From NCBI GenBank assembly GCA_025451835.1, contig JANWJR010000055.1:1-39998 (forward strand): 39,998 nt of DNA, given 5' to 3'. Of the stretch, positions 722 to 24,352 are shown in pieces (the stretch's first letter is position 1; each line of letters opens with the position of its first letter). The translations under genes were made by a program, and so were the position numbers. The notes beneath the pieces were generated by a model. The model worked only from the letters and a program-made list of their open reading frames with translations. It did no database searches and had not been told where the DNA came from. This DNA is from Candidatus Acidiferrales bacterium. GTDB taxonomy: Bacteria; Acidobacteriota; Terriglobia; Acidiferrales; UBA7541.

Positions 722-3634
722 GTGGGTGCGCCCCGAACACAAATCGATCGCGCGGCCGCTCTCGAAATTGAAGCACTCGCGACAGTGCGACAATTGCTCG
801 CCGAACTAGGAAGTGCGCGAGGACTTGAAGAGCTATCCGCGCGCGGAGCCGCCGCTCACCTCGAGCGGGAGCTGGGACTCGGCAGCCTTGAGCGGGTTGA
901 ACTGCTTGTGCGCCTGGGCGACGCCGCCGGCGTGCGGCTTCCCGATGCCGTGGTAACGAATGCCAATACCGTGCAAGATTTGATCGACGCGCTGGCGCGA
1001 GAAGAACCAGGCGCCGAACCGCCGCGTCAGTCAACGGCTGCTTTGACCGCGGCTGCTTTGACCGCGCCTGCTTCAGCTCCCATCCAGCTAGGTCTCGAAG
1101 AGAAAATCTGCAGCGCCCAAACATTAACTGAAATCCTGCGTTTGCGAGGCCTCGGCGAGCCTGCCCGCGCGCACATCCATCTGTACGAAGAAAACGATCA
1201 GCTTCGCACGATCACGTTCGGCGAGCTGTACCAACGCGCGACATCGGTGGCAAGAGAATTACTTCGCCGGGGGCTCGAACCGGAACAAACGGTGGCGATC
1301 ATGGTTCCGACGTGCGCCGAATTTTTCGCTGTGTTTGCGGGAATCCTTCTGGCCGGGGGAATTCCGGTCCCGATGTATCCGCCGTTCCGCGTCGACCGCA
1401 TCGAGGAGTACGCCGCCAGACAGTCCGCCATTTTAGGCAATGCCGAGGCGCGATTCCTGATCACGTTCCGGCAAGCCGAAGGTCTTGCGCGAATGCTTCG
1501 TCCCCGTGTGCCCACGCTGCGTGAAGTGCTGATCGCGGAATCACTCGCCACGATCCCGGCACGCCCGGAAAACCTGCAGCCCGCGACATGGCAGCCCGTT
1601 CAAGAACTCTCGCACGAGGCACGAGGCGGCGATATCGCGTTTCTGCAGTACACATCCGGGTCGACGGGGAATCCCAAGGGCGTAACGCTGACGCATGCGA
1701 ACCTGCTGGCGAACATTCGCGCGATTGTCGACGCGATCGAAATCGTGCCTGCTGACGTTGCGGCAAGCTGGCTGCCGCTCTATCACGACATGGGGTTGAT
1801 CGGCGCATGGTTTGTTCCGTTATTTACGGGCATCCCGGTGGTCATAATGTCGCCTCTGGCATTCCTGAGCCGGCCGGAGCGATGGCTGTGGGCCATCCAC
1901 CGGCACCGGGCTACGATCAGCCCGGCACCGAATTTCGCGTTCGAACTCTGCGTGCGAAAGATTGGGGAAAAAGATATCGAAGGATTGGATCTCAGTTCGT
2001 GGCGCGCGGCGCTCAACGGCGCGGAGCCGGTTCGCGCGGAGACTTTGAACCGGTTCGTGGACCGGTTTTCACGCTACGGGTTCCGTCGTGAAGCGCTGCT
2101 CGCCGTGTATGGACTGGCGGAGGCGTCTCTCGGCGTATCTGTTCCGAAAATCAATTCGGGATATCAGGTTGACCGTATCGAACGCGCGGCGTTTGAATCG
2201 CAGGGCCACGCGATTCCGGTTGCTGCGTGCGCGACGACCGCCCTCGAATTCGTGAGCGCGGGGCAGCCTCTTGCAAACGTCGAGGTTCGAATTGTGGCGG
2301 CGAACGGAAGCGATGCCGGCGAGCGAATGGAAGGAAATCTCTGGCTCCGCAGCCCGTCGATTATGAACGGTTACTATCGCAACGTGGAGGCGACGCGCGA
2401 TGTGATGCGGAGCGGCTGGCTGGATTCGGGAGATCGAGCCTATCTTGCTGCCGGCGAGCTTTATATCACCGGCAGAGCAAAAGATATCATCATCAAAGCA
2501 GGACGAAATCTCTATCCCCACGAAGTGGAACAAGTGGCGGGAGGAGTGCCTGGTGTTCGCGCGGGGTGCGTGGCTGCGTTCGGCGCCCCGGATGAGCGAA
2601 GTGGCACGGAGCGTTTGGTGGTGGCTGCGGAAGTTCGTGACATGGCTGATGCGAAACGTATCAGCCGGGAAATCGCGTCGGCTCTCGTTGAAGCGCTGGG
2701 GATTCCGCCCGATGCCGTCAAGTTACTGCCGACGCACTCGATTCCCAAGACTTCGAGCGGAAAACTCCGCCGCGGCGAGGCGCGACGGTTGTACCTGGAA
2801 GGCAGACTCGGCGCGAAACAATCGCCGGCATGGATGCAGGTCGCGCGCCTGGCGTCACGAAGCGCGGCTCCTCGCGCACGGGACGCTACCAAAAATGTCA
2901 CGCGGCGATTGGCTCAGATTCTCTACGGGCTGTACGCACTGGCCGTCTTCGCAATCGGGATGATTCCGTTGCGAATTGTCGTGCCGTTGATCTCAAAGCG
3001 CGAACGTGCTGCAAGATTCACACGCGCCGGAGCGAGGCTCATGTTACGCGCAGCCGGGATTCCGGTGCATTTTGAAGGAGAGCGTCTTCTGGGGGAAATC
3101 GCAAAATCAGGGCCGTGGATTTTTGCACCGAATCATTCGAGCTACCTGGACGTTCTCGTGACGATGGCGTGCCTGCCGGCAGGAGTGAGGTTTGTCGCGA
3201 AGGGCGAGATTGCCTCCATGCCGCTGGTGGGCAAAGTAGCCATGAAATCCGGGCAGTTGGTATTTGATCGAAACGATCCCCAGGCGCGGATCAGCCAGGC
3301 GAAGGCAGTGAATGCGGCGCTCGAGCGCGGGGAATCCGTTGTCATCTATCCGGAAGGGACATTCACGCCGGTTGCTGGTATTCGGCCATTTCAACTCGGA
3401 GCTTTCAAAGCGGCCGTGGATACTGGCCGGCCAATTTGCCCTGTTGCCGTACGCGGCGCGCGCCGGATTCTGCGCGATACCACCTATCTTCCGCGCCCGG
3501 GCAGCGTGACCGTGACATACGGGCAGCTCGTCACGCCGGATCGGAACGCCTCGAGCGAATGGAAGGAAACCATTCGATTGCGCGACTCTACGCGTGAGAT
3601 CATCGCGCGAAATGCCGGTGAACCGCTTCTCTAG
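722..3634 (+). CDS. Acyl carrier protein / fatty acyl-AMP ligase / 1-acyl-glycerol-3-phosphate acyltransferase (PlsC) fusion protein
   Basis: GTG start. N-terminal ACP-like segment (LGLGSLERVELLVRLG); adenylation motif FLQYTSGSTGNPKGVTLTHANL and GDRAYLAAGELYITGRAKDIIIKAGRNLYPHEVE; C-terminal PlsC-like NHSSYLD and YPEGTFTP motifs. Confidence 0.9.
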   Translation: MGAPRTQIDRAAALEIEALATVRQLLAELGSARGLEELSARGAAAHLERELGLGSLERVELLVRLGDAAGVRLPDAVVTNANTVQDLIDALAREEPGAEPPRQSTAALTAAALTAPASAPIQLGLEEKICSAQTLTEILRLRGLGEPARAHIHLYEENDQLRTITFGELYQRATSVARELLRRGLEPEQTVAIMVPTCAEFFAVFAGILLAGGIPVPMYPPFRVDRIEEYAARQSAILGNAEARFLITFRQAEGLARMLRPRVPTLREVLIAESLATIPARPENLQPATWQPVQELSHEARGGDIAFLQYTSGSTGNPKGVTLTHANLLANIRAIVDAIEIVPADVAASWLPLYHDMGLIGAWFVPLFTGIPVVIMSPLAFLSRPERWLWAIHRHRATISPAPNFAFELCVRKIGEKDIEGLDLSSWRAALNGAEPVRAETLNRFVDRFSRYGFRREALLAVYGLAEASLGVSVPKINSGYQVDRIERAAFESQGHAIPVAACATTALEFVSAGQPLANVEVRIVAANGSDAGERMEGNLWLRSPSIMNGYYRNVEATRDVMRSGWLDSGDRAYLAAGELYITGRAKDIIIKAGRNLYPHEVEQVAGGVPGVRAGCVAAFGAPDERSGTERLVVAAEVRDMADAKRISREIASALVEALGIPPDAVKLLPTHSIPKTSSGKLRRGEARRLYLEGRLGAKQSPAWMQVARLASRSAAPRARDATKNVTRRLAQILYGLYALAVFAIGMIPLRIVVPLISKRERAARFTRAGARLMLRAAGIPVHFEGERLLGEIAKSGPWIFAPNHSSYLDVLVTMACLPAGVRFVAKGEIASMPLVGKVAMKSGQLVFDRNDPQARISQAKAVNAALERGESVVIYPEGTFTPVAGIRPFQLGAFKAAVDTGRPICPVAVRGARRILRDTTYLPRPGSVTVTYGQLVTPDRNASSEWKETIRLRDSTREIIARNAGEPLL

Positions 3635-3804: not shown

Positions 3805-4311
3805 ATGGTCCGCAAGCTGTCGCTATTGCTGGCGCTGGTTTTTGTAGCTTCAATTTCGGCTCGTGCGCAAGGGATCGCCGACAAAGTCGAGGCTTTCGGC
3901 GGATACTCCTTCGAGCGGTTCAGGGGCTCCCCGTCGGGTAATTTGAACGGCTGGGAGCTTTCGGGACAATACAAGGTCACTGATTGGCTGGGGGGAGTGG
4001 CTGATTTCGACGGCCATTCGGGCTCTCCGAATGGATTGCATGAGTCCGTGCACACGTACCTGTTCGGCCCGCAAGTGTCATTTCCCGCGCGGATTTCTCC
4101 TTTTGCCCATGTGCTGTTCGGTGGCGCGCACATCAGCCGGGACGGATTGTCTCTTTCCTCGTTTGCGACGGCGATTGGCGCTGGGATCGATGCGCGAATC
4201 GCGCATGGAATTTCGTGGCGCGTGATCCAGGGAGATTACGTCCACACGCACTTTTTTGGAAGCGCGCAAAACAGCGCACGGCTCTCGACAGGCATCGTCA
4301 TACATTTCTGA
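3805..4311 (+). CDS. Outer membrane beta-barrel family protein
   Basis: Signal peptide (MVRKLSLLLALVFVASISARAQ), alternating amphipathic strands, terminal aromatic F. Confidence 0.7.
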   Translation: MVRKLSLLLALVFVASISARAQGIADKVEAFGGYSFERFRGSPSGNLNGWELSGQYKVTDWLGGVADFDGHSGSPNGLHESVHTYLFGPQVSFPARISPFAHVLFGGAHISRDGLSLSSFATAIGAGIDARIAHGISWRVIQGDYVHTHFFGSAQNSARLSTGIVIHF

Positions 4312-4317
4312 GCTGAA

Positions 4318-5082
4318 CTACATCACGAAATTTACGGTGACGTAGGTTTCAACCTCGACAGGCTGGCCATCCAGCCGCGTAGGGCGGTATCGCCATTGGC
4401 GCACGGCGGCAAGCGCTGCCTGCACGAGGATGGGATTGCCACTAAGCACCGTCAGATTGCGAACGCCTCCGTCCGTGCTGATGATTGCACGCAGCTCCAC
4501 GGTGCCGGAAAGCCTCATGATTTTTGCCGCTGACGGATACGCGGGCTCAACGCGGTGAATCAGCGCCGCTTCCATGACGCCTTCGCTGATGCGCCGCAGC
4601 TCGGTTGGCTTTTCGGGAGGGCGAGGCGGATTCGGCATGACTGGACCATTTCCCGTCGCGCCGGGAATCACGGGGCCGGAGTTCGCATCGCCGGGGCGCC
4701 GATCGTCGGCGCCGCCCGTCTCGATCTCCAGCGGTGGTCCCTGGCTCGCTGCGGCTATGTGAAGTGGGACGTGGGGCGGCTGAAGGATGGGTGGCGGATC
4801 GGCAATTGGTGTGTGCCTGCGTGTCGGTGGATGCGAATTGGCATGGGCACTTAGAGCGCTTGCGTTGCCGCCGGGATATGGCGGGACGGGAGTCACGACG
4901 TAGCGCGCAGGCAACGCGCCCGGCATGAGCAGCGGCCAGAGAAATACGCTGGCAACAAGAAAGCATTCGAGCGCAATCGAGAGAGCCAGCGCCTCTCTTC
5001 GCAAGCGGCGAGCTCGTTGGCGAGTTTCCGAGTCGCTTTCCAGCAGACATTCCGTCAGTCTTTCCGGGCCGCACATGGACAC
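4318..5082 (-). CDS. Energy transducer TonB family protein
   Basis: N-terminal TM helix, Pro-rich linker, C-terminal TonB-like domain (AYPSAAKIMRLSGTVELRAIISTDGGVRNLTVLSGNPILVQAALAAVRQWRYRPTRLDGQPVEVETYVTVNF). Confidence 0.88.
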   Translation of the reverse strand: MSMCGPERLTECLLESDSETRQRARRLRREALALSIALECFLVASVFLWPLLMPGALPARYVVTPVPPYPGGNASALSAHANSHPPTRRHTPIADPPPILQPPHVPLHIAAASQGPPLEIETGGADDRRPGDANSGPVIPGATGNGPVMPNPPRPPEKPTELRRISEGVMEAALIHRVEPAYPSAAKIMRLSGTVELRAIISTDGGVRNLTVLSGNPILVQAALAAVRQWRYRPTRLDGQPVEVETYVTVNFVM

Positions 5083-8026: not shown

Positions 8027-10702
8027 CTAGCTCTTTTCCGGTTCGAGTGGCAAAGCAGCGACGACGACGGCGGATTCCTCTTCGAGGATTGCAGCGGCTG
8101 CGGCGATGCGGTCGCCTTCTTCGAGGCGCAGCAAGCGGACGCCTTGAGTCGATCGGCCGGCTTCGCGAATTTCCGCCGAGTGCACGCGGATCACCTTGCC
8201 CTGGCCTGTGATGATCATCACGTCGGAATCTTCGCGCACCTGGAGCGCCGCGACAACAGCGCCATTTCGATCGGTTGACTTCAAGTTGATCACGCCCTTG
8301 CCACCGCGCGACGTGACGCGATATTCGGCGAGCGGCGTGCGCTTGCCATAACCCTTTTCGGCGACGGTAAGCATCAGCGACGTGAGCGATTCGCGGATGT
8401 GGTCGCTTTCGAGTTCGTCGAGGTTCCGCGTGGTCTGCTTGTATTCCTTCTCGATGATTCCGAAATCGGGCTGCGCGGCATCCATCGAGACCACGAAATC
8501 GTCTTTTGCAAGGTCCATTCCGTTGACGCCGCCAGCAGCGCGGCCCATCGAGCGAACCTCGGTCTCGCGGAATAGAATCGCCTGGCCGTCGCGGCTGGCG
8601 AGAAAAATCATCTGCTTGCCGTCGGTGAGCTTCGCGCCGATCAATTCATCGCCGGGTTCGAGATTAATCGCGATGATGCCGGACGGACGCGGATTTGAAA
8701 ATTCGGCGATGGCGGTTTTTTTCACGGTGCCATTGCGCGTGGCAAGAAAGACGAATTTGTCCTCCTGCTCGAGGCTCCTTACCGACACGACGGCCGTCAA
8801 CTTCTCGCTTTCCTGAAAACGCACCAGGTTTCCAATCGCTTTTCCGCGCGTGGCGGCCGCGGCTTCGGGAATTTCGTACACCTTCAGCCAGTAGATGCGG
8901 CCTTTTGAGGTGAACAGCAGGATGTAACTGTGCGCGGACGCCACGAAAAGGTGCTCGACGAAATCCTCTTCGCGCGTTCGGGCGCCGATGCGGCCCTTGC
9001 CGCCGCGCGATTGATGGCGGTAAACGTCCACCGACGTGCGCTTGATGTAGCCGGCGTGGCTGACGGTGATGGCCATCTCTTCGTCCTTGATCAAATCTTC
9101 GAGCTTGATTTCCTCGACGCGGTCGACGATTTGCGTGCGCCGCTCGTCGCCATAGGATTTCAGCACTTCGCGCAACTCGGCGACGATCACGGCTTTCAAC
9201 TTTTTCTCGCTGGCAAGAATTTCGCTCAGCTCGGCGATGCGATCTCGGATTTCCTTCAGTTCCTTGAGAATTTCGTCCACGGAAAGCTGCGTGAGCCGGT
9301 GCAACTGCAGTTCGAGGATGGCGTCAATCTGGACGTAGCTGAGCCCCAGGCCTTCGCCGGAACTGGCAACCGTAATCCCATATTTCTTTGCGTCGAGCTT
9401 CACGCCTCGAACCGTGGTTTCTTTCCCGCCGACCAGGACCTTAATGGACTTATTTTCGAAGAATTCGTGCAGGTTCTCGCGGGCATTTGCTCGGCTCGAC
9501 GAACCGCGAATGATTTTGATGACGTCGTCAATGTGGTCGAGAGCGATCCGGTAGCCGAGCAAAATATGCTCGCGGTCCCGTGCTTTTCGCAGTTCGTATT
9601 GCGTGCGGCGGCGGACCACATCCACGCGGTGCTCGATAAAAAGGCGCAGCAGTTCGACGAGGCCCAACTCGCGCGGCTGGCCGCCGACAATCGCGAGCAG
9701 GATCATGCCGAACGATTCCTGCATTTGCGTATGCTTAAAGAGTGCGTTGAGGATGATCTGCGGCTCTTCGTCGCGTTTTACCTCGACGACGATGCGCATT
9801 CCATCGCGGTCGCTTTCATCGCGAATGTCGGCAATGCCTTCGATCTTCTTGTTCTGAATCAGCTCGGCGATGTGTTCGATCAGCCGCGCCTTGTTCACCT
9901 GGTAAGGCAATTCGGTGACGACGATATCCTGGCGATCCTTGCCGCGCTGCTCGATGGCGGCCTTCGCGCGCACTTGAAACGATCCACGCCCGGTTTTATA
10001 GGCCTGCTCGATTCCTTCGCGGCCGTAGATGTAGCCGCCGGTCGGAAAATCAGGACCCGGAACGAGCTTCATCACTCTTTTGAGGTTTACATCCGGCTCT
10101 TCGATCATCAAGATTGCGGCTTCGACGGTTTCTTTCAGGTTGTGCGGCGGAATGTTGGTGGCCATGCCGACGGCGATTCCGCTCGAACCGTTAACCAACA
10201 AATTCGGGATGCGCGTGGGAAGAACGACCGGTTCGTGCTCGCTTTCGTCGAAATTGGGAACGAAATCAACCGTTTCCTTTTCGATGTCCGCAAGCATCTC
10301 TTCAGCGATTTTCGAAAGGCGCGCTTCGGTGTAGCGCATGGCCGCCGGCGGATCGCCGTCCACGGACCCGAAGTTGCCTTGGCCGTCAACCAGCGGATAG
10401 CGCATGTTGAAATCTTGCGCCAAGCGCACGAGAGCGTCGTAGACAGGCGAATCGCCGTGCGGGTGGAACTTGCCGAGCACTTCGCCGACGATCTTCGCGC
10501 ACTTGCGGTAGGCCTTCGTCGAAGTCAGCCCGAGCTCGTACATCCCGAAAAGAATTCGCCGGTGCACCGGCTTGAGGCCGTCGCGCACGTCCGGAAGCGC
10601 GCGCCCAATGATTACGCTCATGGCGTAATCGAGGTACGACTTCTTCATTTCGGATTCGATGTCTACCGGCGTCAGTATTTGCTGGCTCGTCTCGTCTGCC
10701 AT
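8027..10702 (-). CDS. gyrA: DNA gyrase subunit A
   Basis: Full-length match to Gyr[55 protein letters not shown], GyrA-box-like QSRGGKGR. Confidence 0.98.
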
Positions 10703-10711
10703 TTTTCCTCG

Positions 10712-10963
10712 TTACATTCGTTTTGAAGCCCGATCGAGTACATACGCTTTCACGGTTTCGAAGGCCGAGGCGCTGTTCGTGAATCGTTCCCTCGCGAAAT
10801 GATCGTGGAGATGGCCCAGAAACGCGTCGCGCTCGGCATCGTTTGTGAATTCGACCGCAACGCCCTGTTCGGTATCCGGCGCGTCAGTGGGTGTGGCACG
10901 AAACTCCGAGCAGCTCAACCCGCGCAGCCCCGGCAAAATCTTCCACGTCAGTTGGTGAATCAC
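10712..10963 (-). CDS. Small hypothetical protein (possible Dabb-like alpha/beta-barrel)
   Basis: Fits between gyrA and gyrB on the same strand with plausible composition; family call is weak. Confidence 0.5.
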   Translation of the reverse strand: MIHQLTWKILPGLRGLSCSEFRATPTDAPDTEQGVAVEFTNDAERDAFLGHLHDHFARERFTNSASAFETVKAYVLDRASKRM

Positions 10964-11038
10964 AATCGTTGCGTCGCTTCAAACCAAGTTTCCAGCGCCT
11001 TTCTATTGTTTTGCAGGTCGCGGTTTTAACTGCGCTTC

Positions 11039-13462
<2,424 letters not shown>

Positions 13463-14009
13463 TCAGATTGCTGGTGATGCTCGGGAAGGCGGTCGCGCGG
13501 ATTGCCCGACACTTGCCTGCCCATTGGCCCCAGTCCGAACTGGGACTCGAAGGGTTCTTTGAAGCTTCATCCCGTCTCGTTCCGAAAAAATCGGGCGGAC
13601 GCGGCAAAGCTTTTTTTCCCCCGCGGAGGGGATTGTCCATCGCCTCGCTGGCCTTTCCTGCCCTGGCGCGAACAAGAATTGCGTGAGGCCGCAAGCGCGG
13701 ACGCGGTGCTGTTCAGGAGGATTTCCGGAACACCAGATTTTACCGGAAGGCCAGCAATTTCACAAGGAATTTCCGGCCCGGGAATCCAATTTATCGTTTG
13801 TCGTTTCAATATGTTACACGACGGCAGATCGGCTATATGGGAAGCGCGATTCGAAGCCAAGAATTCGCCAAGATTTGTGGTTGCTTGGCCGACGTAGAAG
13901 CGTAAGAAGATCATGGAGTTTGGAGCCCTTCGATAACTTTGGCACGGGGGAATGCGAAAGCTCTGACAGTTGCGATGCCGAAAAATTCAACGATGCGTGG
14001 TGGCTTCTG

Positions 14010-15122
14010 TCAGATGCGCATGGGCATTACGACGTAGCGGTAACGGCTGGATTCGTCCCCGACGGGGCGCAACTGGCCAGCGGACTGTTCATCCTTCAGC
14101 TCGAAGCTGATGGGACCGTCGGCGGCGGCGGCAAGAAAATCCAGCAAGTATTGCGCGTTAAAACCGATCGATATCGGGTCGCCCTTGAATTCTTTTTCGA
14201 TCGCTTCCTTCGCTTCTCCATATTCGGGGCTGGACGCGGAAATCTCGATGCCTTCGTTTGCAAGCGTGAATTTCACGGCATGGGAACGCTGATCGGCAAG
14301 CTGCGAAACACGGCGCAGCGCATCTTGCAATTCACCGCGCTCGAGCACAACCGTCTTATTCGCGTCACGCGGAAGCACCGCTTCGTAATTCGGGAATTGG
14401 CCGGTGAGCTTTCGCGAAGTCAGCAGGCGCGCGCCGAACTGAAAGAAAAGATGGCTTTCATCCTGCGCGAATTCGATGACGCCGTCGTCGCCAGCCTGCG
14501 CGGCGAGGCGCTGGACTTCCGTCATGGCTTTCTTCGGAACGAGCACCCGAGCCTCGGACGAGAGGCCGTCGAATTTGTGATCCGTTTCGACCATGGCAAG
14601 GCGATGACCATCGGTGGCGACCATGGTGAGCGAACCGGGCTTTACCACCAGCAGCGCGCCATTCAGTGTGTAGCGGGACTCTTCGAGTGAAATGGCAAAC
14701 GTGGTCTTGGCGATCAGGTCCGCCAGCAGCTTCGAAGGAATCCTTACGAGCGCTTGCGGAAAACTTGGCAGCGCCGGAAAGTTTTCTTTTGACATCCCGA
14801 CTAGTTTGTAGTTCTTGCGATCGCAGGTGATTTGCACCCAATGGTTTTCGAGCAGCTTGAAACGTATCTCGCCTTCCGGCAGCAGCCGCACGAGTTCGAG
14901 AAGCTTCTTCGCCGGGATCGTGCCAGCGCCTTCTTTCTTGATCTTGGCATCGCAGGACGTGCGGATGCTGAGTTCGAGGTCGGTAGCCGTGATGGTCAGA
15001 TGGTTTCCCTTCGCCTCGCAAAGGAGATTCGAGAGGATGGGAATAGTGGTCTTGCGCTCGACGACGCCTTGCGTCAGTGAAAGCTCATCGAGAAGATCGG
15101 ATCTCTTTACGCTGAATTCCAT
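14010..15122 (-). CDS. dnaN: DNA polymerase III subunit beta (sliding clamp)
   Basis: Full-length DnaN-like sequence ending ...GDESSRYRYVVMPMRI; adjacent to dnaA. Confidence 0.97.
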   Translation of the reverse strand: MEFSVKRSDLLDELSLTQGVVERKTTIPILSNLLCEAKGNHLTITATDLELSIRTSCDAKIKKEGAGTIPAKKLLELVRLLPEGEIRFKLLENHWVQITCDRKNYKLVGMSKENFPALPSFPQALVRIPSKLLADLIAKTTFAISLEESRYTLNGALLVVKPGSLTMVATDGHRLAMVETDHKFDGLSSEARVLVPKKAMTEVQRLAAQAGDDGVIEFAQDESHLFFQFGARLLTSRKLTGQFPNYEAVLPRDANKTVVLERGELQDALRRVSQLADQRSHAVKFTLANEGIEISASSPEYGEAKEAIEKEFKGDPISIGFNAQYLLDFLAAAADGPISFELKDEQSAGQLRPVGDESSRYRYVVMPMRI

Positions 15123-15171
15123 CTCGGCCAGTCCTCGTGTTCAGTTAGAAACGTTTTGGAGAGGCTACTCT

Positions 15172-15298
15172 ACTTCTTTTCTTTACTTGAATAAATATAT
15201 AAGAACACCGTAGTAGCCGCCGCATCTGTGGATACTGCGGAAAACGCCGTAAGACGAATCCCTTGCAACCGTTGCCGCTTTCCGTGTCGTGTGGAAAC
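15172..15298. promoter_or_regulatory. Candidate second oriC segment in the dnaN-dnaA gap: AT-rich tract plus TGTGGATAC (15227) and TGTGGAAAC (15290)
   Basis: AT-rich TTCTTTTCTTTACTTGAATAAATATATAAGAA in a GC-rich genome, followed by two DnaA-box-like sequences. Confidence 0.5.
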
Positions 15299-15424
15299 CT
15301 GCGCGGCAGGCCGGAAAACTTACGCTGGTGGCGACCCCGTGGACCCTGTCGGGAGTCTTGCACAAATCATTCACAGGACAATCACAGCAGGAACGAGAGC
15401 CCGGCGGACACGGCGAAGCTAAGT

Positions 15425-16741
15425 CTACCCGAACGAGTCCAACAGCCTGTTAATCGTCTTGTTCAAATCTTTGTCGGTTTGACGAAGCAGTTCAATTTTC
15501 TTGATCGAGTGCAACACCGTGGTGTGGTGTTTGTCGCCAAATTGCCGGCCGATTTCGGGCAAGGAAGCGGAGGTGAGCTGCTTCACAAGAAACATCGCCA
15601 CCTGGCGCGGATACGCGATGACCTTCGAATTGCTTTTCATCTTCAAGTCCTGCGCCCGCAAACCGAAATGCTCGCCCACCCGCTTCTGTATCTGCTCGAT
15701 GGTGATCTTCTTTTCCTGCGTTTCGATGATGTTCTTGAGCACCTGCTGTGCGGTGAGCAGATTGACCTCCGCACCGGTGAGCGAAGCGTAGGCCATCAGG
15801 CGGATCAGAGCGCCTTCGAGCTCACGTATGTTCGACTTGATCGAGCGTGCGATATATTCTGCTACGTCGTCCGGCACGTGGACGTGCTCGTTATCGGCTT
15901 TCTTCTGCAGAATCGCGATCTTCGTTTCGAGATCGGGCATTTGAATGTCCGCAATCAGTCCCCACTGGAATCGCGAGCGCAGCCGCTCTTCGATCGAGGA
16001 AATTTCCTTCGGAGGGCAATCGGACGAGATGACGATCTGCTTTTGCTGATCGTAGAGCGCGTTAAACGTGTGAAAGAATTCTTCCTGCGTGCGCTCGGCG
16101 CGAGCGATGAACTGGATGTCGTCCACCATCAGCACATCCATGTTGCGGAAGCGATCGCGAAAAGAAGGCATGCGCTCGAAGCGGATCGACGAAATCACTT
16201 CATTCGTGAATTTTTCTGCGCTGATATACGTTAGCCTCAACGAGGGGTTTCGCTTCTTGAGCGCGTGGCCGATCGCCTGCATCAAGTGCGTCTTGCCCAG
16301 TCCCACACCGCCGTAAAGGAAGAGCGGGTTGTACGATTTGGATGGCTGTTCGGCAACGGCAACAGCCGCGGCGTGCGCGAACTGGTTCGACGAGCCTACG
16401 ATGAATGTATCGAAGGTATATCTTGAGTTGAGCTGAGGACTGACGGAATCGAAATCGAGTTTGGCCTGCGGCGGAGGTGCAGCCGCGCTGGCCGGTGCTG
16501 GCTCCGCTTCCGCGCAAACAAATTCGAGATGCAATTGGGGTTTGCCGATTTCGGTCAGAACGGCTTGCAGGAGTTGCCCATACGTTTCCGTCAGGCGCTT
16601 GCTGAAGAGCCGCGTGGGAACGCGAACCACGAGATTGTCATCCTCAGCGCGTTCTTGACGCGTCGGACGAAACCAGGTGGCGAAACTATGCGGGTTTACG
16701 CGCCGTTCGGTGTGCTGAAGAATCTTATCCCAAAGGTTCAT
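15425..16741 (-). CDS. dnaA: Chromosomal replication initiator protein DnaA
   Basis: AAA+ motifs (NPLFLYGGVGLGKTHLMQAIGHAL), C-terminal box-binding DKHHTTVLHSIKKIE. Start placed at MNLWDKILQHTERRVN (16741) instead of the upstream ORF start at 16765. Confidence 0.97.
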   Translation of the reverse strand: MNLWDKILQHTERRVNPHSFATWFRPTRQERAEDDNLVVRVPTRLFSKRLTETYGQLLQAVLTEIGKPQLHLEFVCAEAEPAPASAAAPPPQAKLDFDSVSPQLNSRYTFDTFIVGSSNQFAHAAAVAVAEQPSKSYNPLFLYGGVGLGKTHLMQAIGHALKKRNPSLRLTYISAEKFTNEVISSIRFERMPSFRDRFRNMDVLMVDDIQFIARAERTQEEFFHTFNALYDQQKQIVISSDCPPKEISSIEERLRSRFQWGLIADIQMPDLETKIAILQKKADNEHVHVPDDVAEYIARSIKSNIRELEGALIRLMAYASLTGAEVNLLTAQQVLKNIIETQEKKITIEQIQKRVGEHFGLRAQDLKMKSNSKVIAYPRQVAMFLVKQLTSASLPEIGRQFGDKHHTTVLHSIKKIELLRQTDKDLNKTINRLLDSFG

Positions 16742-16763
16742 GAAACGAGTCCGCCCCGACCAC

Positions 16764-16795
16764 ATTTTCCACCGGTGTGGAAATGCTGTGGAAAT
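16764..16795 (-). promoter_or_regulatory. DnaA-box-like cluster upstream of dnaA (candidate oriC part or dnaA autoregulatory site)
   Basis: Plus strand ATTTTCCACC|GGTGTGGAAAT|GCTGTGGAAAT: two tandem TGTGGAAAT units 11 bp apart plus one inverted copy. Confidence 0.6.
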
Positions 16796-18596: not shown

Positions 18597-18836
18597 TCAC
18601 CAGCGCAACGATTTCAGGTAAGCGACGATCTACCGGCGGCGCTGCTCGGGCAAACCCGGCCAGCAACAACGCATGCCCGCTGCGAGATTCCCGTTGCGCA
18701 AGAACCATTCGAGCTCGCCCGATGTCGCATTCTGCACGGCGCGCAGATGAAGATCTACAGCGCGTCCGATTCCGCGAGCATGCGGCCCACGCGTTGTTAT
18801 GGTAACCGCATCAGACCTGCAAAACGTCGCCATCAC
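18597..18836 (-). pseudogene. Cytochrome c C-terminal remnant
   Basis: Minus-strand translation NATSGELEWFLRNGNLAAGMRCCWPGLPEQRRR*IVAYLKSLRW*: cytochrome c-like tail with an in-frame TAG at 18630-18632. Confidence 0.6.
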
Positions 18837-21800
18837 GCGCGACCGTTCGATACAGCACTGGATCGACGAACACAGCGAGGCACAATCGGGAGATCAAACC
18901 TGCAACGATCACAATCGCAAACGGCTTTTGAGTATCAGAACCGATCCCCGAGGAAAGCGCGGCGGGCAGAAGGCCGAGGCAAGCCACGAGCGCCGTCATC
19001 ATGATGGGTCTTAGCCGCATGAGAGCGGCTTCGCGTGTTGCGGTTCGAATATCCTTTCCTTCTTGCCTGAGCTTATTGATAAAAGACACGAGGATGACGG
19101 CGGTTTCGACCGACACGCCCATCAGCGCCAACAAGCCGAGCACGGAAGAGACGCTGAGCGATGTGTGCGTCAGCTTGAGAGCGATTAACGCTCCCACGGG
19201 CTCCGTGATGAGCACGCCAAAGGCGATCGCCATGGGGAATTTGAAATTGCCATACAGCACGAACAGAATCATGAATATCAGCAGAACCGCCAGTGGGCCG
19301 ATGATTTCCATCTGGTGCTCCGCCTCCACGAATTCGCTGTATTCTCCGCCCCAGGTCAGGCGGTAGCCCGTGGGAAGTGTTTTACTGATGTTGGCAATCG
19401 CGCGCTGGCCATCTTTCACCGCGCTGGCGAGGTCGCGGCCTTCGATGCTGAATTGCACGCCGATATACCGCGAATTATTTTCACGATAGATAAACGAAGC
19501 GCCGCTCGCTTCACGAATGTTAGCCAGATCGCTCAATGGAATCTGCTGTCCGGCGGGAGTTCCAACGAGCAAGTTTCCAATTTGCTGAGCGTTTTGGCGG
19601 AACTGGGGCTTCATGCGGACAACAAGATCGAAAAGTTTTTCACCCTGAATCACCTGCGTGGCGGCCTGTCCGCCCACGGCGGCCTGTACGACGGCTTCGA
19701 CGTCCGCGACGTTGACTCCGTACCTCGCGATCTTGCCGCGATCGACGTCGATTAGAAGGCTGGGTTGCCCAAGCTCGCGCACGACGGTCAGCTCCGTAAA
19801 ACCGGGTACTTGCGAGAGTTGCCGCTTGATTTCGATCGCCTTCGACTGCAAGACGTTGAGGTCCGGGCCATAGATCTTTACAGCAAGCGCGCTCTTGAGT
19901 CCGGTCAAGGCTTCGTCAACGGCGTCTTCAGCGGGCTGCGTGTAATTGAAGATCACGCCAGGATACGTGCTTAGTTTCTTTTGAAGATCCTCCTGCAGCG
20001 CGGCCTTGTCGTGAACGGGACCCTTTTTCCAGGTCGCGTCATCATAGGGTTTCAGCCCGACGTAGAATTCACAGTTGAAGAAACCGGTGGGGTCGGTGCC
20101 ATCGTCGGGGCGGCCAAGCTCCGAACCCACGTCCGTCACCATTGGATACTGCATCAAAATGTCACGGATCTGCGGCGCGAACTTACTCGCTTCGTCATAA
20201 GAGATGGTGTAGGGCATCGTCGCGCGCACCCACAGTGCGCCCTCATCGAGATGAGGCATGAATTCGCCGCCGATGAATGGAACCAACAGCAGGACGCCGC
20301 CGAAAATGGCCACTGCAACCAGAATCGTGATTTTGGGATGATCGAGACAGCGGTCGAGCTGGACGGCATATTTTTCTTTTATCCATTCGAACGGCTTGTT
20401 GACGCGCTCGCGCACGCCGTTTTTGAACCAGTACGAGCACATGACGGGAACGAAGGTGAGAGTCAGAATCAGCGCGCCGATGAGCGCGATGGACATCGTG
20501 TCCGCCATGGGATGGAAAAGTTTTCCGGCGGGCCCGCTGAGCGCGTAGATGGGGATGTACCCGGCGATGATGACGGCCACGGAGTAAAAAATTGGCCGGT
20601 CGACGTCTTTCGCCGCGGCCAGGATCACTTCATGCAAATCGTATCTCTGGCCTTCGCGCAAGCCTAGCTCGCGGAAGACGTTTTCGACCATCACCAGCGT
20701 GCCATCGATGATGATTCCAAAATCGATCGCGCCGATCGAAAGCAAGTTCGCGGCGACGCCCTTGGCATGCAGAAAGATGAATGAGAAAAGGAGCGCCAGC
20801 GGAATCGTTAGCGCCACGATCACCGCTGCGCGAACGTTCACCAGGAAAAACATCAGCACGATCAGGACGAGGATCATCCCGCGTATCAGGTTCTTTTCCA
20901 CGGTGTCGGTGGTCACCCGGACTAGATCGCTGCGGTCGTAGAAGGGATGAACCTTTACGTCCGGCGGCAAAATGTGTTCGTTGAGTTGCTTCGTTTTCGC
21001 CTCGACGCCCTTAAGCACGTTCTGGGTTTGCTCGCCGCGAAGCATCAGAATAACGCCCTCGACCGAATCGTCCGTTTTGTTGAATCCAAATTCGCCGAGC
21101 CGAGGCGCATGCCCGATCGCGACTTCGCCGATGTCGCGCACCAGCACTGGCACACCATTCTGGTTTCCAACGATCACGTTGGCGATATCCGCTTCATCGC
21201 GGATCAGACCAAGCCCGCGCACGTAATAAAACTGCCCGCCCTGCGAGTAGAAGCCTCCTCCAGCATTGGAATTATTGACGGCTAGCTGCTGAATCACCTG
21301 CGGAACAGTGATGTGATAACCGTAGAGGCGCGCGGGATCGAGCAGAACTTGATACTGCATGACCGTCCCGCCGAAGCCGGAATCATCGGCAACGCCGCGA
21401 ACCTGCTTGTACTCGCGCTCGATGACCCAGTCCTCGTAGGTCTTCAATTCCTGCGGGCTGCGGTCAGGGCTTTCGAGTACGTAGCGGTAGACGAGTCCGG
21501 AAGGGCTCGAGAGCGGCGCCAGCGAGGGAGCGACGCCAGAGGGAAACGTGACTTCGCTGAGACGCTGGAAGACCACCTGCCGCGCAAAATAATCGTCCGT
21601 ATCTTCATCGAATGTCAGCCGAACGTCCGAAAGGCCGTACAGGGAAATCGAGCGCATCACGGACATTTTCGGCACGCCGTTCATTTCCACTTCGATGGGC
21701 AGCGTGACGAGGCGCTCGATTTCCTCGGCGGCATGGCCGCTCCACTGCGTGATGATCTCCACCATCGGCGGTGAGAGGTCCGGATAAGCATCCACCGGCA

Positions 21801-21900
21801 TGCGCTGGAAGGAGACGCTTCCGCCCACCAGGATAAACACCACCAGCATCATGACCAGGAACCGCTGCCTCAACGAGAACTGAACGATGCGATGAATCAT
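18811..21900 (-). CDS. CusA/CzcA family heavy-metal efflux RND transporter permease
   Basis: Full-length 1029-aa HME-RND: RFLVMMLVVFILVGGSVSFQRMPVDAYPDLSPPMVEIITQWSGHAAEEIERLVTLPIE; IDGTLVMVENVFREL. Confidence 0.95.
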   Translation of the reverse strand: MIHRIVQFSLRQRFLVMMLVVFILVGGSVSFQRMPVDAYPDLSPPMVEIITQWSGHAAEEIERLVTLPIEVEMNGVPKMSVMRSISLYGLSDVRLTFDEDTDDYFARQVVFQRLSEVTFPSGVAPSLAPLSSPSGLVYRYVLESPDRSPQELKTYEDWVIEREYKQVRGVADDSGFGGTVMQYQVLLDPARLYGYHITVPQVIQQLAVNNSNAGGGFYSQGGQFYYVRGLGLIRDEADIANVIVGNQNGVPVLVRDIGEVAIGHAPRLGEFGFNKTDDSVEGVILMLRGEQTQNVLKGVEAKTKQLNEHILPPDVKVHPFYDRSDLVRVTTDTVEKNLIRGMILVLIVLMFFLVNVRAAVIVALTIPLALLFSFIFLHAKGVAANLLSIGAIDFGIIIDGTLVMVENVFRELGLREGQRYDLHEVILAAAKDVDRPIFYSVAVIIAGYIPIYALSGPAGKLFHPMADTMSIALIGALILTLTFVPVMCSYWFKNGVRERVNKPFEWIKEKYAVQLDRCLDHPKITILVAVAIFGGVLLLVPFIGGEFMPHLDEGALWVRATMPYTISYDEASKFAPQIRDILMQYPMVTDVGSELGRPDDGTDPTGFFNCEFYVGLKPYDDATWKKGPVHDKAALQEDLQKKLSTYPGVIFNYTQPAEDAVDEALTGLKSALAVKIYGPDLNVLQSKAIEIKRQLSQVPGFTELTVVRELGQPSLLIDVDRGKIARYGVNVADVEAVVQAAVGGQAATQVIQGEKLFDLVVRMKPQFRQNAQQIGNLLVGTPAGQQIPLSDLANIREASGASFIYRENNSRYIGVQFSIEGRDLASAVKDGQRAIANISKTLPTGYRLTWGGEYSEFVEAEHQMEIIGPLAVLLIFMILFVLYGNFKFPMAIAFGVLITEPVGALIALKLTHTSLSVSSVLGLLALMGVSVETAVILVSFINKLRQEGKDIRTATREAALMRLRPIMMTALVACLGLLPAALSSGIGSDTQKPFAIVIVAGLISRLCLAVFVDPVLYRTVARDGDVLQV

Positions 21901-21914
21901 AAGAGCTGCCGCCT

Positions 21915-23078
21915 CTAGTGTTGGAGCGAATTGGCGAACTGCAGGAACAAACTCCCGTCGCCTACAACCTTGTCGCCCGGAGAGAGACCCTTCAAGATTT
22001 GCGTTTTGCCGCCCTCGCTCTGTCCGATGTCGACGGAACGGCGGCCGAACTGGTTCGCGCCGCTGGCAACGTAAACGAACGGCTGATTCTCATCGTCGCG
22101 AAGAACCGCGGAATCGGGCACGGCGATGGCGTTCTGAATCTGGCCCGCCGTGACGCTGACGGTGCAATACATGTCCTTTTTAAGTTTTTCGCCGTGATTA
22201 TCGACGACGATGCGGGCCTGCAAAGTGCGCGTATTCGGATCGAGCGCCGGCGAGATAAACGAAATTTTTCCGTGGAAGACGTCCGGATACGCGTCGGTGT
22301 GAACTTCAACGGAATCGCCGACTTTCACGTCCGCGAGATCGGCCTGGTAAATGTTGGCAAGCACCCAGACCGTGTTCATGTCGGAAATTGTGAATGCTTG
22401 CGTCGACCCTGCCTGCAGTACTTGGCCGGGCGCGACGAGCCGTTCGACGATTTCTCCTCCAATCGGAGCAAGCAGCGGGACTTGTGCGGAGACTGGAGCT
22501 TTTTCGAGCTGCTCGGGATTCTTGATCCCGAGAATTTTCATTCCCTGCTCGGCCGCATTCCTATCCGCCTGTGCTTGATTGCGGTCTGATTCGGCCTGCT
22601 GCAAATCGCGCTCCGCGATGGCGTGGTGTTTGTACAGATCCTGCGCGCGCACGTAATTTTTGTCCGCCAGGCGGAACGCATCGTTCGCTTTCAGGTACAA
22701 GTCTAGAAGCTGCGAGTAATCGGGGCTGCTCACTTCGAGTAATGGCTGGCCCTGGTGAACCCGCTCGCCGGGAACCACCAGAATCCGGCTGACAGGTCCG
22801 CCAACTTGCGTGATGACAGGCGTGGTCTTAAAGGCGTTATATGCGACGGCGCCCGTAAGGCGAAGCGTGCGTGTCAACTTCGCGGGTGCCACCGTCACGA
22901 CCTGCACATGGGACATCTGATCTTCCGGGATCGTGAAGAGCGACGCGGTATTCGCCTTCGATCCCTGGGAGGAATACGACGTCATCGTGCTTGGCTTGTC
23001 GGAACTGCAAGCTGCGAGCGAAAGCGCGGCGACCAGAGCCAGCAAGCACACACTTCGAGCGATGGTTTGGACGTTCAT
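21915..23078 (-). CDS. Efflux RND transporter periplasmic adaptor subunit (CusB/CzcB type)
   Basis: Lipoprotein-like signal (LSLAACSSD), membrane-fusion-protein core; upstream of the RND permease. Confidence 0.93.
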   Translation of the reverse strand: MNVQTIARSVCLLALVAALSLAACSSDKPSTMTSYSSQGSKANTASLFTIPEDQMSHVQVVTVAPAKLTRTLRLTGAVAYNAFKTTPVITQVGGPVSRILVVPGERVHQGQPLLEVSSPDYSQLLDLYLKANDAFRLADKNYVRAQDLYKHHAIAERDLQQAESDRNQAQADRNAAEQGMKILGIKNPEQLEKAPVSAQVPLLAPIGGEIVERLVAPGQVLQAGSTQAFTISDMNTVWVLANIYQADLADVKVGDSVEVHTDAYPDVFHGKISFISPALDPNTRTLQARIVVDNHGEKLKKDMYCTVSVTAGQIQNAIAVPDSAVLRDDENQPFVYVASGANQFGRRSVDIGQSEGGKTQILKGLSPGDKVVGDGSLFLQFANSLQH

Positions 23079-24352
23079 GGCAAACTCCTGGTACCCACGG
23101 CTTCGCGCAATTGTTCAACCGCGGAAAGGTAGGAAGCGAGCGACTGGCGATAGGCAAGCTCGGTTGAGCGATAGCTGCGTTCGGCGTCGAGGAAATCGAG
23201 AAGGCTGGCCGCACCCTTTTTGTAAGCGTACTCCGCGATGTCTCGCGATTGCTTCGCCTGATCGAGGTAGCCGGAGCGGTAAAGCGTGACCACCTGGTCG
23301 TTGTCGCGAACTCCTTCGTAGGCGTTGAGCACGTCGCTCATCACCTGGTCGCTGGCCGCGAGTTCGAGTTCGCGCGATTGCGCAATGACGTAATTGGCGC
23401 GCGCGATCTCTCCCTGGTTGCGATCGAAGATCGGCAAAGGAACGCTGACGATGATGGACGCTGAGTTGTAGCCGGTGATATGCGTGAAATTCAACGTGCC
23501 AGTGACGTCTTGCTTCGCGATGGCTCTTTGCAATTCGTACTGGCTCTTGGCCGAGCTAATGCCTTGTTGCGCAGCACGGAAATCCGGCCGGTTCTGCAGG
23601 GCCTTTGCCTGCAAGTCTTCCAGCCTCATGGTCACCGGAATGTAGTCGAAATCGCCCGAGACATCGTAGTCTCTTGGAACGGCGTTATATCCGAGCAGTT
23701 GCCGCAGCCCGACCAGGGCTTGCATTCTGGCAAGATTTGTCTGGGTCACGTCCGATTGAAATTGCAGCAACTGAATCTTGATTTTGAGATAGTCGCCTTC
23801 GCTAATATCGCCGGCCTTGTATCGCGCTTCGCTGATGTCCACGGTATTTTGAAAGCTCTTCAGATCCTGCTGCGCCAGGGCCAGAGTGGATTCCGCAAGC
23901 TGCACGGTGATGAATTGCGAAGCCACCTGAAACGTGAGCGTGCGCTCGTTGTCCGTCACCTGCGATCGCGTAACCGTCGTCGCGTCTTTCGCCGCCTGCA
24001 GACGGTGCTGGCGCTTCTTTCCGCGCTCGAACAGATAGCCGAGTCCTATGTCAAATTCGGTCGCGTCGATATTGTTAGCGGTGAAAGTGCCGGGCGTCAG
24101 CGGAAGGCCCACAACATCGGCGCCGAAGACGGGATTGGGGCGCAGGTTTGCCGTGATCTCCTCGGCTTCGTTTTGCTGAATTGTCGTTTGCGCAGCCAGT
24201 AGGTTGTGATTGTGCTGGATGGCCAACTGAATGGCTTGATCGAGCGTAATCCGAACCGGTCCTTGCGTTTGCGCGCGCAAATCCGGCGCAAGGAGCGCTG
24301 CCGCGAAAATCAGAATCGCAACAAACCCGGACCGCATGAGTTGCACACGCAT
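23075..24352 (-). CDS. TolC/CzcC family outer membrane efflux protein
   Basis: Signal peptide, TolC-type coiled-coil repeats; ATGA overlap with the adaptor gene. Confidence 0.93.
   Translation of the reverse strand: MRVQLMRSGFVAILIFAAALLAPDLRAQTQGPVRITLDQAIQLAIQHNHNLLAAQTTIQQNEAEEITANLRPNPVFGADVVGLPLTPGTFTANNIDATEFDIGLGYLFERGKKRQHRLQAAKDATTVTRSQVTDNERTLTFQVASQFITVQLAESTLALAQQDLKSFQNTVDISEARYKAGDISEGDYLKIKIQLLQFQSDVTQTNLARMQALVGLRQLLGYNAVPRDYDVSGDFDYIPVTMRLEDLQAKALQNRPDFRAAQQGISSAKSQYELQRAIAKQDVTGTLNFTHITGYNSASIIVSVPLPIFDRNQGEIARANYVIAQSRELELAASDQVMSDVLNAYEGVRDNDQVVTLYRSGYLDQAKQSRDIAEYAYKKGAASLLDFLDAERSYRSTELAYRQSLASYLSAVEQLREAVGTRSLP

Follow-up and report, generated by a model that had tools for sequence, protein, structure and literature searches.

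A recurrent single-chain fusion of an acyl carrier domain, a fatty acyl-AMP ligase and a PlsC-type acyltransferase, predicted to function in CoA-independent fatty acid salvage in bacteria

Domain searches, motif conservation and structural modelling indicate that a 970-residue protein of a Candidatus Acidiferrales bacterium combines, on a single chain, an N-terminal acyl carrier protein (ACP), a fatty acyl-AMP ligase (FAAL) and a C-terminal PlsC-type acyltransferase. We consider it fairly probable that this protein mediates CoA-independent salvage or remodelling of fatty acids, with the FAAL loading the ACP of the same chain and PlsC acylating a lysolipid. The gene lies in a window of 39,998 nucleotides, the whole stretch of DNA analysed here, which is all of contig C55 of a fragmented MAG (2.2 Mb, 79.5% complete); it starts with GTG and has no internal stops. 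Its features are the following:

722-3634, + strand: whole open reading frame, 970 residues, in the order ACP, FAAL, hydrophobic helix, PlsC (ORF call, Pfam, AlphaFold)
767-1006, + strand: acyl carrier domain spanning approximately residues 16-95, with the Pfam PP-binding match at 42-91 (Pfam, equivalog model, PDB matches, model helices)
884-886, + strand: codon of Ser55, predicted phosphopantetheine site, LGLGSLERVELL (conservation; first residue of model helix 55-69)
1097-2812, + strand: predicted FAAL domain, residues 126-697, with complete N- and C-subdomains (Pfam, NCBIfam, PDB sequence and fold matches)
1649-1684, + strand: ATP-binding P-loop, YTSGSTGNPKGV, residues 310-321 (83-homologue alignment)
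2147-2257, + strand: FAAL-specific insertion region, about residues 476-512 (3pbk alignment, insertion length)
2762-2764, + strand: codon of Lys681, the C-subdomain adenylation lysine, in KTSSGK (83-homologue alignment)
2909-2992, + strand: predicted membrane anchor, a hydrophobic helix spanning roughly residues 730-757 (model; hydrophobic in 38/38 homologues checked)
3059-3556, + strand: PlsC-type acyltransferase core, residues 780-945, Pfam match at 793-910 (Pfam, profile against PDB, domain model, fold match)
3134-3151, + strand: catalytic HX4D motif, His805 to Asp810 (83-homologue alignment)
3353-3361, + strand: PlsC motif III, EGT, residues 878-880 (83-homologue alignment)

The first-pass annotation, made from the sequence alone, had read a carrier, a FAAL and a PlsC on this one chain, and that reading is borne out by the Pfam domains (PP-binding 42-91, AMP-binding 156-552, Acyltransferase 793-910), by motifs shared among 83 aligned homologues, on which all conservation counts below are based, and by a confident AlphaFold model with its fold matches. 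Moreover, when this alignment was inspected for loss of FAAL or PlsC catalytic residues, all were found to be present and invariant across the family.

With respect to the ligase, the AMP-binding match (E 1.2e-71) is accompanied by a top NCBIfam hit to the model 'fatty acyl-AMP ligase' at 453 bits, below the strict subfamily cut-off of 600 of that model, and general acyl-CoA ligase models score lower. The top PDB sequence match is the E. coli FAAL 3pbk, in a gap-poor alignment, and a Foldseek comparison of the ligase part of the model with the same structure gives a TMt of 0.92. The spacing between YGLAE and GYYRN, which spans the FAAL insertion, is 82 residues here and 79-90 in 71 homologues, as against 44-49 in acyl-CoA-ligase-type paralogues. 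Furthermore, the ANL motifs (P-loop, YHDMG, A5 YGLAE, A8 and A10 with Lys681) are invariant or nearly so among the 83 homologues. Because the NCBIfam match, the sequence and fold matches to 3pbk and the FAAL-length insertion agree, the ligase is assigned, at the level of sequence and model, to the FAAL rather than the acyl-CoA ligase type. FAALs use holo-ACP and reject CoA, according to the published biochemistry as presented in the relevant passage of PMC8460268. In its insertion-bearing FAAL and the pairing of this domain with a carrier, the protein resembles 3pbk and the FAAL-ACP didomains of PKS/NRPS systems, but in contrast to these didomains it has the ACP at its N-terminus and a PlsC domain as the receiver of the chain.

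The N-terminal segment matches the PP-binding model with 26.3 bits, a modest score that is nevertheless above the Pfam cut-off of 20.8; its best equivalog model is an acyl carrier protein, and in the PDB it matches type II acyl carrier proteins. Ser55 opens helix 55-69 of the AlphaFold model, and in genuine ACPs the phosphopantetheine serine is likewise the first residue of a helix. The Asp that usually precedes this serine, in the DSL motif, is not strictly required. The earlier observation that GLGS stands here in place of DSL is correct and describes a variant found in a subset of the family, with 62 of the 83 homologues carrying D at position 54, 18 carrying G and 2 carrying S. Since G54 recurs in this way and Ser55 is kept in 82 of the 83 (the remaining row is truncated), GLGS can be read from the alignment as a recurrent, ordinary variant rather than as a mark of decay. 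As for the modifying enzyme, a search for a PPTase gene in the MAG, which is 79.5% complete, found none, which counts against the proposal that all steps occur on one chain, and each of the 36 relatives searched has PPTase genes, which counts in its favor.

The acyltransferase match at the C-terminus (E 4.4e-26) includes N804, H805, D810, E878 and G879, all invariant in the 83 homologues, along with T880, which is present in 78 of them. A profile of this part returned a single match against the PDB, the Thermotoga maritima LPA acyltransferase PlsC (5kym; E 1.5e-37), and when the domain was predicted separately (pLDDT 93.4), 5kym was again its top fold match (TMt 0.81), membrane-embedding helices included. 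The C-terminal domain thus shares its fold, motifs and preceding helices with 5kym, which, unlike the present protein, is a stand-alone enzyme with neither a ligase nor a carrier. Among curated models, the best is that of 1-acylglycerol-3-phosphate acyltransferase (TIGR00530), at 88.8 bits against a cut-off of 102.95, followed by two lyso-ornithine lipid O-acyltransferase models (63.6 and 61.5 bits). The shortfall to TIGR00530 counts against an LPA-type reaction on this chain; on sequence grounds, membership in the PlsC superfamily stands despite it.

The order ACP, FAAL, PlsC is not an accident of a single genome. The gene was found in 17/20 genomes of the genus, in nearly all of the family, and in 41/101 genomes sampled across the class, chiefly in three families; in a sample of the phylum, 11/119 genomes match, 3 of these with the FAAL only. 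Beyond Acidobacteriota, homologues were detected in Pseudomonadota (alpha, beta and gamma), Thermodesulfobacteriota, Nitrospirota and Mycobacterium innocens. Four more, all with an N-terminal DSL carrier, are encoded by plasmids or chromids in Cupriavidus, Methylobacterium, Paraburkholderia and Photobacterium. The survey across Acidobacteria that had been suggested at the outset therefore confirms the architecture there but does not support its being an Acidobacterial oddity, since it is widespread in bacteria. Because dozens of genomes encode the same order at near-full length (38-70% identity) and Ser55 is retained in 82/83 homologues, chance can be set aside as an explanation of the arrangement. 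Two apparently ACP-less FAAL-PlsC proteins, in Cupriavidus and Photobacterium, had been delimited by BLAST match boundaries, and the frames contain a DSL ACP upstream of the match, on which ground the idea of ACP-less forms there was rejected.

In the tree of the family the phyla are interleaved (14 changes against a minimum of 6), a pattern that suggests horizontal transfer. The PlsC-domain tree groups the ACP-FAAL-PlsC proteins in a single clade (SH-aLRT 96) next to stand-alone PlsC, a topology consistent with a single origin of their PlsC part. Moreover, Ser55 and the PlsC catalytic residues are conserved jointly in almost every homologue, which argues that carrier, ligase and acyltransferase are kept as a unit by selection. 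Relatives in the order, class and phylum also encode stand-alone FAALs of about 630-690 residues, without ACP and PlsC (L135, L134 and L136), which very closely resemble the FAAL domain in the fusion and are possible precursors or products of domain loss.

All three PlsC-family genes found in the MAG (G000 below) encode fusions, in three different domain orders. The two besides the gene under study, and a related group in other genomes, are:

G000:C30:3213-5801 (L003:1339-3930, L109): ligase-ACP-PlsC, 863 residues, with an acyl-CoA-ligase-type domain, an ACP (LQLSSIERVELL) and PlsC, read in the same genome
G000:C66:5886-9257 (L006): LplT-PlsC-Aas fusion (MFS, acyltransferase, AMP-binding), exceeding the NF006386 cut-off
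L124:1714-4650, L125, L126:2097-4862, L127:1871-4597, L137: further ligase-ACP-PlsC group in relatives, about 910-980 residues

The 863-residue protein is matched in 43/61 relatives. The group in relatives has the ACP motif LGLDSM/LxRVELL and a PlsC on a separate branch, with which one short PlsC ORF (L133) also groups. Both kinds of ligase-ACP-PlsC proteins resemble the ACP-FAAL-PlsC family in placing three functions on one chain and in an almost identical ACP helix II (S-x-x-RVELL), but differ from it in domain order, in a ligase that lacks the FAAL insertion and in a PlsC from a different branch. In the PlsC tree the ligase-ACP-PlsC clade (support 99) is apart from that of ACP-FAAL-PlsC, as is LplT-Aas, whose long branch makes its placement unsure. 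The simplest reading of these sequences is that activation, carrier and acyltransferase have been joined more than once, and the separately ordered fusions of ligase, carrier and PlsC in the same genomes suggest that tethering these steps is beneficial. The notion that the fusions replace stand-alone PlsC was rejected, given that short stand-alone PlsC ORFs occur in those relatives whose genomes are the most complete and that the MAG itself is 79.5% complete. Likewise, replacement of Aas by ACP-FAAL-PlsC was rejected for Acidiferrales, where most genomes with the fusion also carry LplT-Aas. The coexistence of LplT-Aas in the same genome and stand-alone PlsC in relatives counts against the proposed one-chain pathway, and implies that the fusion is not simply their replacement.

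The gene is mostly solitary, and no conserved operon partner that would name the acceptor was found among the loci compared, which also counts against the proposed function. The only recurrent neighbor outside the genus is an Atg22-family MFS transporter (PF11700, UMF1-like), immediately adjacent in six loci of Gammaproteobacteria, Betaproteobacteria and Terriglobia and absent elsewhere in the flanks:

L034:10802-12064, L055:6620-7969, L056:6357-7679: Atg22-family transporter genes
L079:10721-12211, L088:1-1161, L105:6452-8317: Atg22-family transporter genes

These six loci are scattered on the tree (6 changes), and a rough estimate rather than a computation, assuming that a genome of ~4,000 genes encodes one or two of these transporters and taking about 77 loci, gives well under one adjacency expected by chance as against the six seen. 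LplT stands beside Aas, and the analogy hints that the Atg22-type transporter may import a lysolipid or a fatty acid; a literature search on the substrate of bacterial Atg22-family proteins returned nothing helpful.

We infer that the FAAL would use ATP to turn a free fatty acid into acyl-AMP and would pass the acyl group to the phosphopantetheine arm predicted at Ser55 in the N-terminal ACP; the acyl-ACP so tethered would then feed the C-terminal PlsC. The latter, presumably kept at the membrane by the hydrophobic helix of about residues 730-757, would esterify a lysolipid, for which 1-acyl-glycerol-3-phosphate or a similar lysophospholipid is the likeliest candidate, such that the protein would act as an analogue of Aas with the intermediate kept on its own carrier. 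E. coli Aas (2-acylglycerophosphoethanolamine acyltransferase/acyl-ACP synthetase) and LplT-Aas (NF005959, NF006386) similarly couple fatty acid activation to lysolipid acylation on one chain via acyl-ACP. They differ in having the order PlsC-ligase and no ACP domain, as had been rightly pointed out for the E. coli enzyme, in contrast to the order ACP-ligase-PlsC with a ligase of the FAAL type; the 970-residue protein scores 182.9 against NF006386, far below the cut-off of 1221, and falls outside Aas.

The same chemistry could be directed to another acceptor, namely a non-glycerophosphate lysolipid, such as a lyso-ornithine or other aminolipid, or G3P, which would make the product a special lipid rather than recycled phospholipid. 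The lyso-ornithine models ranking second and third, together with the fact that stand-alone PlsC would already cover LPA acylation in relatives, speak for such an acceptor; nevertheless, we deem it unlikely, considering that both the top curated model and the top fold, 5kym, are of the LPA-acylating type and that no aminolipid N-acyltransferase was recognized among the top recurring neighbor families. It is a good deal less plausible that there is no transfer in cis at all, with the ACP serving partners in trans, PlsC drawing on acyl-ACP from FAS or on acyl-CoA, and the fusion mainly co-localizing the domains at the membrane. Although FAAL-ACP didomains are known loaders of PKS/NRPS starters (PMC11837247), PKS/NRPS families are absent among the top recurring neighbors, and nearly all near-full-length homologues retain a PlsC with invariant catalytic residues.

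That the ligase might instead make acyl-CoA, reducing the protein to a plain acyl-CoA synthetase/acyltransferase fusion with a vestigial ACP, is suggested by remote members of the ANL superfamily that do so and by the acyl-CoA-ligase-type domains of the LplT-Aas and ligase-ACP-PlsC paralogues, but the FAAL insertion, the FAAL-type top matches and the retention of the carrier serine make this highly improbable. Finally, the fragmented state of the MAG could raise the suspicion of two genes wrongly joined in assembly or annotation; the probability of such an artefact is negligible, since dozens of independent genomes, among them finished records of plasmids and chromosomes, encode the identical architecture and refute it.

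Returning to the preferred pathway, in which FAAL, ACP and PlsC of one chain act in succession, we extend it tentatively, with somewhat less than even confidence, to a CoA-free synthase that would turn fatty acids into membrane lipids with the acyl group never leaving the chain. It would be one of several separately assembled fusions (ACP-FAAL-PlsC, ligase-ACP-PlsC and LplT-PlsC-ligase) that coexist in Acidobacteria, sometimes with an Atg22-type transporter, and route different free fatty acids to different lysolipids.

Known bacterial routes for recycling exogenous or released fatty acids are Aas, FakAB, AasS and FadD. If the proposed pathway is correct, a FAAL tied through its carrier to PlsC would constitute an additional route that bypasses CoA, and FAALs would act beyond PKS/NRPS and mycobacterial lipid pathways. 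The family, common in uncultured soil Acidobacteria and scattered in Pseudomonadota, is annotated simply as 'AMP-binding protein', and offers a compact system for studying carrier-tethered acyl transfer onto a membrane lipid. A single clause in Patil et al. (2021, eLife 10:e70067, PMC8460268) mentions, without a function, the fusion of a few FAAL-like domains from bacteria to lysophospholipid acyltransferases, and the accompanying text reads such fusions as recruitment for PKS/NRPS-independent functions. These are very probably members of the same family, although that passage does not mention the integral ACP, the spread or the paralogous fusions. A 2025 review of FAALs (PMC11837247) mentions neither PlsC nor phospholipid, and in the open-licence literature we found no functional paper on this architecture, PMC8460268 alone mentioning the fusion; the protein is therefore a variant of the Aas-type fusion that has been noted but not studied. 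What is new here is that the same genome encodes a differently ordered ligase-carrier-PlsC protein and LplT-Aas, with PlsC domains outside the ACP-FAAL-PlsC clade, and that an Atg22-type transporter adjoins the gene in six scattered lineages.

As for the rest of the window, the region next to the gene (3805-5082) encodes a small protein resembling an outer-membrane beta-barrel, together with a TonB C-terminal protein, and both are kept in several genomes of the same genus. By eye, a three-gene RND efflux set of the heavy-metal type, comprising an inner-membrane pump, an adaptor and an outer-membrane factor, lies at 18811-24352 (- strand), and gyrA, gyrB, dnaN and dnaA stand together at 8027-16765 (- strand), which places the probable chromosome origin around 16.8-17.5 kb.
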